In this document: positions 26,326-58,093 of the stretch, one piece after another
How the letters are laid out: the number at the start of each line of letters is the position of its first letter
Numbering within the stretch: position 1 is the stretch's first letter
Assembly: GCF_007954405.1 (NCBI RefSeq)
Contig: NZ_CP042344.1
Location: forward strand, 1 to 64,000
From: Comamonas flocculans
GTDB lineage: Bacteria > Pseudomonadota > Gammaproteobacteria > Burkholderiales > Burkholderiaceae_C
Direction: 5' to 3'
DNA length: 64,000 nt
Program-made: the position numbers and the translations under genes
The notes under the pieces: generated by a model
Told to the model about the DNA's origin: nothing
The model's input: only the letters and a program-made list of their open reading frames with translations
Databases searched by the model: none

Positions 26326-26400
26326 TGGTGGGTGATAGTGGGATCGAACCACTGACCCCTGCCGTGTGAAGGCAGTGCTCTACCGCTGAGCTAATCACCC
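26326..26400 (-). tRNA. tRNA-Val(CAC)
   Basis: This 75-base tRNA has an encoded CCA. The acceptor arm GGGTGAT pairs with ATCACCC. The anticodon stem CTGCC/GGCAG holds the loop TTCACAC, giving anticodon CAC (reads GUG). The T-arm loop is GTTCGATCC. It lies between dnaQ and the aap operon on the minus strand. Confidence 0.97.
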
Positions 26401-26425: not shown

Positions 26426-27166
26426 TTATGGCACAGCTTGCGTCACGTTCCGAGCAGGTTTCCACACCCCCCGGCCTGCGCTTGTCTTGTCGATCTCCAG
26501 CAGCACGGCCTCGTGAGCGGCGAGCTCGCGGACGTCGGCCAGCAGGACCGGCAGATCGAAGCCGCTCAGATCCAGTGTCGCGGCAGCGCTCGCCTGCGGG
26601 CTGTCCACGGCACCCGGGGCGACCAGCAGCGATTCCTGGCCGCGCGTCATCTGGATGTAGACGCTCGCCAGCAGCTCCGCATCCAGCAATGCGCCGTGCA
26701 GGGTCCGGCCAGAGCGGTCCACTTCCAGGCGGTCGCACAGCGCATCGAGCGTGTTGCGCTTGCCCGGGTAGAGGTCACGCGCCAGCATCAGGGTGTCGAG
26801 CACGCCTGCCAGGGTCGCAGCCAGCGGAGGGCGCTTCAGGCGAGCGAATTCCATCTCCAGAAAGCCCATGTCGAAGGCGGCGTTGTGGATGATGAGCTCC
26901 GCGCCCTTGAGATAGTCAAAAATCTGCTCGGCGCATTCGGCGAACTTCGGCTTGTCGCGCAGGAACTCACTGCTCAGGCCATGTACGCGCAGCGCGCCCT
27001 CCTCGCTCTCGCGCTCGGGGTTGAAGTACAGGTGCAGGTTGTTGCCCGTCAGGCGCCGCCCCACCAGCTCCACGCAGCCAAGCTCGACGACGCGGTCGCC
27101 CTGTTCGGCCGACAGGCCGGTGGTTTCCGTATCCAGCACGATTTGCCGCAACGCGGTACCCGTCAT
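26426..27166 (-). CDS. dnaQ: DNA polymerase III epsilon subunit (proofreading 3'-5' exonuclease)
   Basis: The 246-residue protein holds the DEDDh exonuclease motifs: VLDTETTGL (Asp12, Glu14), IIHNAAFDMGFL near 94-105, and the H...D motif near LHGALLDAELLA (His about 157, Asp about 162). The last 60 residues fit the tail that binds the alpha polymerase subunit. It removes mispaired bases during replication. Its start overlaps the stop of the IscU-like gene by 4 bases (ATGA). It is thus the last gene of an iscR-iscS-iscU-like unit, an unusual home for a replication gene. Confidence 0.95.
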   Translation of the reverse strand: MTGTALRQIVLDTETTGLSAEQGDRVVELGCVELVGRRLTGNNLHLYFNPERESEEGALRVHGLSSEFLRDKPKFAECAEQIFDYLKGAELIIHNAAFDMGFLEMEFARLKRPPLAATLAGVLDTLMLARDLYPGKRNTLDALCDRLEVDRSGRTLHGALLDAELLASVYIQMTRGQESLLVAPGAVDSPQASAAATLDLSGFDLPVLLADVRELAAHEAVLLEIDKTSAGRGVWKPARNVTQAVP

Positions 27167-27567
27167 GGTTTGCTGTCCTCCTTCTGTGCCGGGCCGCCAG
27201 CCAATGCGGCCACCGCGGCCCGAACCGCCTCCTGGGCCAGGATGGCGCTGTGCAGTTGCGACGGCTGCAGCCCCAGGGCCTGCGCCACGTCGGCGTGGCC
27301 CAGTGCCAGGGCTTGCTCCAGGCTCTTGCCACCCAGCCAGTGGGCGACAAAGGAAGCGGCGGCAATGGCCGGCGCCGCGCCGTAGGCCTTGAAGCGCGCC
27401 TCCTCGATGCGCGCCCCGTCCGGATGCACGCGAATCTGCAGCCGTATCACCTCGCCCGCCCGAGGCGAACCTACCATGGCCGTGCCGACCCCCGGTTCGG
27501 CGTCGTCGAACGACCCGCAGTTGCGCGGGTTCTGGAAATGGTCCGTGACCTGCTGCGAATACGCCAT
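27163..27567 (-). CDS. IscU-like scaffold paralogue lacking all cluster-ligand cysteines
   Basis: This 134-residue protein aligns by eye along the whole of IscU: MAYSQQVTDHFQNPRN at the start, MVGSPRAGEVIRLQIRV, ARFKAYGAAPAIAAAS and SQLHSAILAQEAVRAA. In canonical IscU the same places read PACGD, YGCGSAI and HCSIL. All three ligand cysteines are therefore replaced (Ala, Ala, Ser) and the following Asp is Glu, while the neighbouring His is kept. The only cysteine is residue 17. The frame is clean and the fold residues are kept, so it looks like a selected paralogue, not a decayed gene. It sits 21 bases after iscS and overlaps dnaQ by 4 bases. It probably cannot build clusters in the known way; a role in binding IscS is inference. 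Confidence 0.85.
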   Translation of the reverse strand: MAYSQQVTDHFQNPRNCGSFDDAEPGVGTAMVGSPRAGEVIRLQIRVHPDGARIEEARFKAYGAAPAIAAASFVAHWLGGKSLEQALALGHADVAQALGLQPSQLHSAILAQEAVRAAVAALAGGPAQKEDSKP

Positions 27568-27588: not shown

Positions 27589-28806
27589 TCAGGGCGCCGG
27601 CGCCCATTGCAGTGCCTCGATATCCACGCCCTGCTGGTGCATCTCCCACAAGGGGCTGATTTCCCGCAGGCGCGACACCGCTTCGCGTATCGCCTGCACG
27701 GCCTGATCGATCTCGCGCTCGGTGGTAAAGCGTCCGGTGGTGATGCGCAGGCTGCTGTGGGCAAGCTCGTCGCTGCGCCCCAGCGCACGCAGCACATGGC
27801 TGGGTTCGGCGCTGGCCGAGGTGCAGGCCGAACCCGAGGACAGCGCCACGCCGCGGATGGCGCTCATCAAGGCCTCGCCTTCGACACAAGGCACGCTCAG
27901 GTTCAGGTTCTGCGGCACGCGCCGCTGCAGGCTGCCATTGACCAGTATCTCACCCAGCGGCAACAGCCCCGCCAGCAGCCGCTGCTGGAATGCCTGCGCG
28001 TGCTCGTTGTCCTCATGCATCTCGCGCCCCGCGATGCGAAAGGCCTCGCCCATGCCGACAATCTGGTGCGTGGGCAGCGTGCCCGAGCGCAGCCCGCGCT
28101 CATGCCCGCCACCGTGGATCTGTGCATTCAGCCGCACCCTGGGCTTGCGCCGCACATAGAGCGCGCCCACGCCCTTGGGACCATAGGTTTTGTGCGCCGT
28201 CATGCTCATCAAGTCCACCGGCAGGCTGGCGAGGTCGATGTCCACCCGCCCCGTGGCCTGGGCCGCGTCCACGTGCAGCAGCACGCCCCGCTCGCGGCAC
28301 AAGGCGCCGATCGCGGCAATGTCCTGCACCACGCCGATTTCATTGTTCACGAAGAGCACGCTGACCAGCACGGTGTCCTCGCGCAGCGCATCGGCAAGAC
28401 GCTGCAGGTCGAGCAAGCCGTCGGGCTGCACGTCCAGGCAGGTGACTTCGCAGCCGCGCTGCTGCAGCTCGTGCATGGTGTCGAGCACCGCCTTGTGCTC
28501 GGTCTTGAGCGTGATGAAATGCCTGCCCTTGTGCTGGTAGCTCTCGGCCACGCCCTTGAGCGCCAGGTTGATCGACTCGGTCGCGCCACTGGTCCAGACG
28601 ATCTCGCGTGCATCGGCGCCGATCAGCTCGGCCACCTGTTCGCGCGCGCGCTGCACCGCTTCCTGCGCCTCCCAGCCCCAGGCGTGGGAACTGGACGCCG
28701 GATTGCCAAAGTGCGTGCGCAGCCAGGGAAGCATGGCGTCGACCACCCGTGTGTCGCACGGGGTGGTCGCGCCGTAATCGAGATAGATGGGGAGAGAATC
28801 AGCCAT
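27589..28806 (-). CDS. iscS: cysteine desulfurase IscS
   Basis: The 405-residue PLP enzyme takes sulfur from cysteine as a persulfide for Fe-S clusters and tRNA thiolation. Seen are [11 protein letters not shown] at the start, TEHKAVLDT (His104), the PLP lysine in [10 protein letters not shown] (Lys206) and the mobile active-site cysteine in [10 protein letters not shown] (Cys328). The C-terminal [12 protein letters not shown] keeps the IscS tail known to contact IscU, so this is housekeeping IscS and not NifS or SufS. The ATG at 28806 matches the IscS start; the upstream frame overlaps iscR. It follows iscR by 29 bases. Confidence 0.96.
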
Positions 28807-28835: not shown

Positions 28836-29369
28836 CTATTTGGCAAACGCCGCGCTGCCCAGTGCAAACACCGAATTGGGCGCGTTGACGCGGATGGGCT
28901 TGACCACCGGCACGGTGGAAATCGCCCGCCGCGTGGCGGGGCGGTCTTCGATGCGGATGCCGCGCGCCAGTTGCTCGTCGACGAGCTTTTGCAGCGTGAC
29001 CGAGTCGAGGAACTCGACCACGCGCTGATTCAGCGCGGTCCACAGGTCGTGCGTCATGCATTTGCCGCCGCCCATGCAGTTCTCGCTGCCACCGCACTGC
29101 GTCGCGTCGATAGGTTCGTCCACCGAGACGATGATGTCGGCCACGGTAATGGAGCCCGCCTTGCGCGCCAGCGTATAGCCGCCGCCAGGGCCGCGTGTGG
29201 ATTCGACCAGTTCGTGGCGGCGCAGCTTGCCAAAGAGCTGTTCCAGATAGGACAGCGAGATCTGCTGACGCTGGCTGATCGCTGCCAGCGTCACCGGACC
29301 ACTGTTCTGGCGCAAGGCCAGATCGATCATGGCGGTGACGGCAAAACGGCCCTTGGTAGTGAGGCGCAT
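28836..29369 (-). CDS. iscR: Fe-S cluster regulator IscR (Rrf2 family)
   Basis: This 177-residue regulator has an N-terminal winged helix ([19 protein letters not shown], with [13 protein letters not shown] as the wing). Its cluster ligands Cys92, Cys98, Cys104 and His107 ([16 protein letters not shown]) have the same spacing as E. coli IscR, where a [2Fe-2S] cluster lets it repress isc genes. It heads iscR-iscS-iscU-like-dnaQ. The upstream region has a 25-base type 1-like IscR site and a perfect FNR-type box, so autoregulation plus oxygen control is likely. Confidence 0.96.
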
Positions 29370-57625: not shown

Positions 57626-58093
57626 TCACGACAACATGGGCACACCCGGAATGGGCGTGCGGCGCGCACGCGTCACGCTGCTGGCGCGCATCGGCGCCAG
57701 ATCGGCAAGCGTCACCTCGTCGAGCACCGCCAGATAGCTGCGCGTGGCGCGCTCGAGCACACCTCTGAGGTTGCAGTTGTTGCTAATGCGGCAACTGCTG
57801 TGGTCGCGGCTGAAGCATTCGACCATGTCGAAGCCGGTTTCGGTGGCGCGCACGACGAAGCCGACGGAGATGTCCGCAGGCGGGCGCATCAGCCGCATGC
57901 CGCCGCCGCGCCCGCGCGTGGTGTCCAGCACGCCGATGGCCGCCAGCTGGCGCACGATCTTGGTCAGATGGCTGCGCGAGATGTCGTGCGCCTGCGCGAT
58001 TTCGCTGATGGTGACCGGCTTTTCACGGTCCTCGAAGGCTGCGCAATACATGAGCACGCGCAGCGCGTAGTCGGTCCACTGGGTCAGATGCAT
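57626..58093 (-). CDS. nsrR: nitric-oxide-sensing regulator NsrR (Rrf2 family)
   Basis: The 155-residue regulator opens MHLTQWTDYALRVLMYCA and has the wing RGRGGGMRL. Cys93, Cys101 and Cys107 (ECF, SSCRISNNCNL) fit the cluster ligands of NsrR, and LDEVTLADL matches its dimer helix. NsrR releases DNA when nitric oxide attacks its Fe-S cluster, turning on detoxification genes. No hmp or nor gene is next to it. A GAGATGCATTT half-site lies about 30 bases upstream of the start, suggesting autoregulation. The start at 58093 is set by the family N-terminus. Confidence 0.88.
   Translation of the reverse strand: MHLTQWTDYALRVLMYCAAFEDREKPVTISEIAQAHDISRSHLTKIVRQLAAIGVLDTTRGRGGGMRLMRPPADISVGFVVRATETGFDMVECFSRDHSSCRISNNCNLRGVLERATRSYLAVLDEVTLADLAPMRASSVTRARRTPIPGVPMLS

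Follow-up and report, generated by a model that had tools for sequence, protein, structure and literature searches.

An IscU orthologue without cluster ligands is retained beside IscS in Comamonas flocculans and SUF-bearing relatives

IscU is regarded as the very definition of an iron-sulfur cluster scaffold, and for that reason its binding to IscS is hard to separate from its scaffolding. The window, by which we mean the whole 64,000-nucleotide stretch of Comamonas flocculans DNA analyzed here, carries on its minus strand an iscU gene (27163..27567) whose product has lost its cluster ligands (C37A, D39E, C63A and C106S). What might a scaffold protein without ligands be kept for? Genomes of this kind are a natural separation experiment, with the scaffold chemistry gone and the protein kept, and they allow a direct test of IscU's own regulatory role on IscS. 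A search of open-licence literature (titles and the starts of abstracts) found no report of a retained ligand-free IscU.

An IscU orthologue in a shortened isc operon

The original prediction described a clean reading frame encoding a protein that resembles IscU over its whole length, and both points held. The frame, running from 27567 to 27163, encodes 134 amino acids with no internal stops; Pfam NifU_N matches residues 2-122 (114.9 bits), and the alignment covers E. coli IscU residues 1-121. Comparison with canonical IscU (183 distinct sequences, drawn from 228 loci) bore out the claimed loss of all three cluster-ligating cysteines: Cys37 and Cys63 are replaced by Ala, Cys106 by Ser, and Asp39, which in IscU is required for cluster release, by Glu. 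His105 is retained, and Cys17 is the only cysteine left. The NCBIfam IscU model (TIGR01999) gave the protein 123.0 bits, below the curated equivalog cut-off of 192.4; nine of the ten cysteine-poor relatives described below (all but G095) scored 116.1-184.9, and canonical Variovorax IscU scored 220.6. An AlphaFold2 model built on a 20-row alignment had a mean pLDDT of 91.5, low in the last nine residues only. By Foldseek, this model matched human ISCU best (5wkp_H) and, second, E. coli IscU from the IscS complex (3lvl_A; TM 0.90/0.96, rmsd 0.9 A). The protein is thus predicted to keep the IscU fold, as had been proposed.

Upstream of the gene, and on the same strand, lie iscS and iscR. The IscS-type cysteine desulfurase (27589..28806) scored 644.5 bits against PRK14012 (cut-off 548) and 638.6 bits against TIGR02006, just below the cut-off of 643.2; the family scan covered 27589-28803, and the ATG sits at 28806-28804. 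Only 21 bases separate the end of iscS from iscU. The Rrf2-family regulator of the isc operon, iscR (28839..29369), scored 212 bits against TIGR02010 (cut-off 207.6), and its product is 84% identical to Variovorax IscR by tblastn. On the other side is dnaQ (26426..27166, minus strand), encoding DNA polymerase III epsilon (TIGR01406, 275.8 bits). Its first possible ATG shares bases with the iscU stop codon (ATGA), and a later start lies 11 bases past the stop. A tRNA-Val gene (cac) is found immediately past dnaQ (26326-26400, minus strand).

The window order is therefore iscR-iscS-iscU-dnaQ, while the canonical order, as in Variovorax locus L060, is iscR-iscS-iscU-iscA-hscB-hscA-fdx-dnaQ. All of the genes between iscU and dnaQ are missing in the window: the junction at 27163..27167 (minus strand) is the site of iscA-hscB-hscA-fdx in canonical relatives. 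Could this be a duplicated second isc locus? We dropped this idea, since dnaQ also closes the canonical operon. The gene has kept its place in the isc operon, directly after iscS and ahead of the dnaQ that follows fdx in canonical operons, in agreement with the original prediction. We conclude that it is the original isc-operon iscU and not a paralogue; its product is IscU by fold and place, and not by the features that define a scaffold. Elsewhere in the window (57650-58093, minus strand) there is a second Rrf2-type regulator with 26% identity to Variovorax IscR, which could control another sulfur or Fe-S pathway.

SUF, the ISC remnant and the origins of cysteine-poor IscU

The genome, a single contig of 3,333,437 bases, has two NifU_N genes: the iscU described here and one at 3,309,794, which is sufU (141.2 bits; cut-off 92.5). 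A hidden second canonical IscU was thereby rejected, and the search that had been recommended for a cysteine-bearing iscU with iscA-hscBA-fdx came back empty. The genes sufB-sufC-sufD-sufS-sufU-sufT form a single run on one strand (G000:C1:3304984-3310804; L185 6985-12804). SufB, SufC, SufU and SufT scored above their curated cut-offs, and SufD and SufS matched their own families best but fell below theirs. A tblastn search with IscR found no IscR-like gene within 15 kb around the run. Searches for the partners of an IscU scaffold gave no HscB match genome-wide and no HscA over the cut-off (best 612.9 bits versus 708.6, a DnaK-like strength), and the one A-type carrier gene is distant from the iscU locus. 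Hence, the cell has SUF plus an ISC remnant.

The window IscU is not a SufU, the zinc sulfurtransferase of SUF, with which it shares the NifU_N superfamily: it scored 37.7 bits against TIGR01994, versus the cut-off of 92.5 that the separate sufU passes, and, with Cys17 as its one cysteine, it is without the zinc-binding cysteines. With the IscU/ISCU scaffold (TIGR01999; 3lvl chain A) it shares full-length homology, the predicted fold (0.9 A rmsd), the place after iscS, Tyr3 and His105. It differs in having none of Cys37, Cys63 and Cys106, in Glu39 and in its score below the cut-off; its genome differs in that HscB was not found, no HscA passed the cut-off and neither iscA nor fdx adjoins. No normal [2Fe-2S] scaffold role is possible because all three ligand cysteines are lost, as the original prediction held, and sufBCDSUT is present as a replacement. 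"IscU present" by homology is not the same as a working ISC system; the cysteines need to be checked.

How widespread is this state? We read IscU in 125 genomes, namely, 122 from a family sample of 399 and three more of the genus. The order of reading was nonrandom, starting with the best-scoring, two-copy and HscB-lacking genomes. Cys37, Asp39, Cys63 and Cys106 were all present in 112 genomes, two partial sequences were canonical where covered, and 11 were cysteine-poor. Among these 11, Cys37 and Cys63 are retained in none, Cys106 in eight and Asp39 in one. Genome G270 encodes a protein 87% identical to the window IscU with the same three cysteine losses, and Cys37 and Cys63 are also missing in nine more genomes. 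These independent, graded losses mean that we are not looking at a sequencing artefact; we found no support for a sequencing or assembly error, and its probability is practically negligible.

Eight of the nine genomes examined from the genus itself carry an IscU lacking Cys37 and Cys63. The ninth, G391, has neither a match to this IscU nor an IscS beyond SufS-like strength. The remaining cysteine-poor proteins come from a second genus (g71; G176 and G319) and a third (g5; G355), in which the order is iscR-iscS-iscU-iscA-dnaQ; G355 has lost Cys106 too. The genes hscB, hscA and fdx are absent from the locus in all 11 genomes (in G399, G400 and G401, the absence of hscB was read at the locus only). 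iscA is retained in G400, G401, G196, G399, G176, G319 and G355 and lost in G333, G095, G270 and the window; the last two have lost Cys106 as well. We read in this a graded and repeated record of SUF takeover dismantling the ISC operon, hscBA-fdx first, then iscA and, last, the desulfurase pair.

HscB was found in 377 of the 399 family genomes. The 22 HscB-less genomes (20 as listed, with G345 and G355 assigned by elimination) comprise eight with a cysteine-poor IscU, ten without an IscU-strength match and four with canonical IscU. In the four, the contig ends inside hscB (G100) or directly after iscU (G131 and G321), or the assembly is 55% complete (G093). The ten without an IscU-strength match are G391; G083, G171 and G291, which gave no NifU_N match and are 58-85% complete; and G094, G107, G109, G273, G340 and G345, which gave only a weak NifU_N match of SufU strength, G109 being without SUF. 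The other five of these six (G094, G107, G273, G340 and G345) have SUF, no HscB and no IscU-strength match, and they have apparently lost the ISC scaffold altogether.

SUF (PF01458) is present in all 11 genomes with cysteine-poor IscU, in G391 and in all seven sister genomes, compared with two of 45 HscB-bearing genomes (one per genus, taken in handle order). The sisters in the second and third genera (G070, G254 and G377; G004, G142, G226 and G295) combine SUF with a full canonical operon and all cysteines. Since these SUF-bearing sisters still have canonical IscU, SUF came first. Mapped onto a tree built from IscR, IscS and DnaQ, the cysteine-less state requires three changes, two of which are forced by the starred branches. 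A single clade for all 11 genomes was rejected (p-AU 2.8e-5), whereas grouping the genus with G355 stayed acceptable (p 0.155). Hence, cysteine-less IscU has arisen at least twice, and three origins are likely. The genus forms one branch, which is weakly supported (49/72), and G399 sits on a long branch of the tree.

Wider searches added no further examples among the sequences read. In a contig scan of 590 relatives, the best 80 all had the three cysteines, and none was of the cysteine-poor type. A plasmid search gave 32 records, and among the 20 matches listed, identity did not exceed 52%. Twenty second or low-scoring copies were fetched as well; two were the cysteine-poor IscU of G176 and G355, and 18 were canonical where covered, two of them partial. 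Many family genomes have a second isc-type operon, arranged iscS-iscU-(A-type carrier about 36% identical to IscA)-IscA-hscA-fdx. In the examples read (L196, L197, L198, L199, L200, L201, L202, L203, L204, L207 and L208), its IscU has the canonical cysteines, and no HscB match was found within the operon.

Selection on iscU and parallel change in its pocket

Perhaps the gene is simply decaying? A slowly decaying relic would have had its constraint relaxed under SUF, with the fold kept for a time only because misfolding of IscU would be damaging to IscS or to the cell; it would have no positive role and would be heading for loss. Between the window and G270, the iscU genes have 48 nucleotide differences, 30 of them in third positions, that cause 18 amino acid changes. 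When the 48 changes were scattered neutrally, the mean was 32.7 amino acid changes and the minimum was 22; none of 1,000 scatters gave 18 or fewer. The same test gave 0/1000 for each of the pairs G400-G401, G196-G400 and G176-G319; the fifth pair, G333-G095, has only five differences and was not significant (117/1000). The recommended comparison of substitution rates across relatives pointed the same way, with a dN/dS for window-G270 of 0.18 (NG86) or 0.15 (YN00). Hence, selection maintains the gene, as the original prediction had supposed: it is under purifying selection, and it fails the expectations of a pseudogene in having an intact frame and a deficit of amino acid changes. Constraint is nonetheless weaker than on working IscU. 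The protein evolves faster than canonical IscU (dN/dS of 0.04-0.17 in six pairs) and than its neighbors IscS (0.083) and DnaQ (0.090) in the same window-G270 comparison; the values for G319 and G176, whose IscU was extended to an upstream start, include a doubtful N terminus. Between the window and G333, dN/dS reaches 0.49 at only 50% identity, so change between sublineages has been fast.

This rapid evolution speaks for a relic, as do the five HscB-less, SUF-bearing genomes in which IscU is gone and only a SufU-type match remains. Frames are, however, intact in 11 of 11 genomes, the amino acid deficit is strong in four of the five pairs, and separate lineages have acquired identical replacements rather than random ones. 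We consider a decaying relic unlikely. Nor do we put much weight on a second proposal, that the frame is kept solely so that dnaQ, with a start codon that may overlap the iscU stop, can be translated. The ATGA overlap in the window recurs in an identical junction in G270. But translational coupling of this sort would preserve the frame and not the amino acids, iscA intervenes between iscU and dnaQ in seven of the 11 genomes, and there is no overlap in G333 and G095 with the starts used. This explanation is very improbable.

Cys63 has become Ser in nine of the 11 genomes and Ala in two; Asp39 is Glu in ten; Ser65 is Pro or Ala in all 11; Ser69 has given way to Ala in nine and to Thr in one; and Ser107 is Ala in seven. 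In ten of 101 near-invariant IscU columns (one of them the start residue), an identical new residue is shared by two or more of the three lineages, compared with 0 of 134 for IscR and 1 of 147 for DnaQ. The parallel pocket changes are not like random decay.

The rebuilt pocket might instead serve as a sulfur or metal carrier, in which Glu39, His105 and Cys106 would form a reduced site for the IscS persulfide or a single metal ion; in the window, the task would fall to Cys17. In favor of a carrier, His105 (11/11), Glu39 (10/11) and Cys106 (8/11) are well kept. Against this, the window, G270 and G355 lack Cys106, Cys17 occurs in only two of the 11 proteins, and the changes of pocket Cys, Ser65 and Ser69 to Ser, Ala or Pro would favor packing over metal binding. 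We regard a carrier function as quite unlikely. In E. coli IscU, Ala mutants at sites 107, 90 and 111 favor the structured state, according to the excerpt of PMC13423590. A stabilized fold could not be read from the present proteins, where Ala appears at 107 only and Asn90 and Glu111 change otherwise; it remains a lead.

IscS and its IscU-docking surface

The original prediction offered three roles for the protein: modulation of IscS, binding of frataxin or HscA, or a new role. HscA and HscB were not found in the genome, which argues against the HscA role. From sequence, modulation of IscS is the best supported of the three, and IscS binding is predicted. The catalytic residues of IscS (His104, Lys206 and Cys328) are retained in 11 of 11 genomes with cysteine-poor IscU. 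One of these genomes, G399, whose assembly has 5% contamination, also carries a further IscS-like fragment that shares 73% identity with window IscS and lies at the edge of a contig (C103 3-710).

IscU contacts E. coli IscS at 309-316, 347 and 379-391, in the portion of Shi et al. (PMC2854127) that we drew on. The IscU-binding tail had been called intact; this was mostly so, and not wholly, as the window differs from RLRDLSPLWEMYK at E. coli positions 379-391. Parallel changes fell at four of 19 near-invariant docking positions (312, 314, 379 and 383) versus four of the other 272 (odds ratio 17.9; Fisher p 0.0008, in a test run after the pattern had been seen), and two of the latter four, 397 and 399, belong to the same C-terminal tail. 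Counting positions changed in at least one lineage, the figures were 5/19 for docking and 33/272 for the rest (p 0.085). We take the parallel changes as probable co-evolution of a retained contact with the cysteine-poor IscU. Relaxation of an unused surface could be the alternative, and the lower conservation of the docking surface than of the rest of IscS (8.2 versus 9.75 of 11) fits equally.

On the IscU side, Tyr3, Gly38, Val40, Lys59 and Gly62, which contact IscS (contacts as given in the same portion of PMC2854127), are retained in 11 of 11 genomes. As a set, however, contact positions show no better retention than the remaining invariant positions (mean 8.2 versus 7.7 of 11); we therefore rejected the count of contact residues as proof of IscS binding. 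Tyr11 is changed in eight of the 11 proteins, and the window and G270 have Gln in place of Lys103; charge reversal of Lys103 in E. coli IscU abolishes IscS binding, as the excerpt of PMC2854127 states.

On balance, we think it probable, by a small measure, that the iscU product has been kept as a "pseudo-scaffold," a non-scaffold partner of IscS, SUF having taken over. As synteny and sequence show, SUF (sufBCDSUT) assumed cluster building in the lineage, the operon lost hscB, hscA and fdx first and then iscA, and the cluster pocket was rebuilt without cysteines. IscS would remain for other sulfur routes, e.g., tRNA thiolation; its supply of tRNA thiolation and similar routes is established for E. 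coli. The retained IscU would be kept because it continues to dock on IscS. Occupying or tuning the IscU site of the desulfurase, it may set the activity or stability of IscS or how much of the persulfide reaches other acceptors, such as TusA, while itself accepting no sulfur for a cluster. In E. coli, TusA and IscU are competitors for IscS, and the desulfurase activity of IscS-TusA is reduced by IscU (excerpt of PMC11302665); a ligand-free IscU could go on performing this part of the work of IscU. We count in favor of the pseudo-scaffold reading that G391, the sole member of the genus without IscS, is also without IscU, although this assembly is 95% complete and the joint absence may reflect that.

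Does this extend beyond one genus? More tentatively, and at somewhat less than even chances, IscU may have become, more than once and in independent lineages, a dedicated non-scaffold subunit of IscS after SUF takeover and loss of HscAB-Fdx, with similar rebuilding of the pocket, with IscS co-evolving and with the pair serving the other sulfur routes of IscS. If this is true, tuning of IscS was always a role of IscU in its own right, one that can be separated from scaffolding.

Two known situations come close. CyaY/frataxin and IscX bind IscS and tune it without being scaffolds, going by the excerpt of PMC2854127; if the pseudo-scaffold reading is right, the ligand-free IscU would likewise be an IscS partner without its own cluster, but those proteins are unrelated to it in fold and use a different site of IscS. 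In Mycobacterium tuberculosis, a SUF organism, iscS is the single ISC gene left (excerpt of PMC10848736). Reduction of the isc operon after SUF takeover with retention of IscS is shared with that case; there, iscS stands alone, whereas here an intact, ligand-free IscU is retained with IscS.
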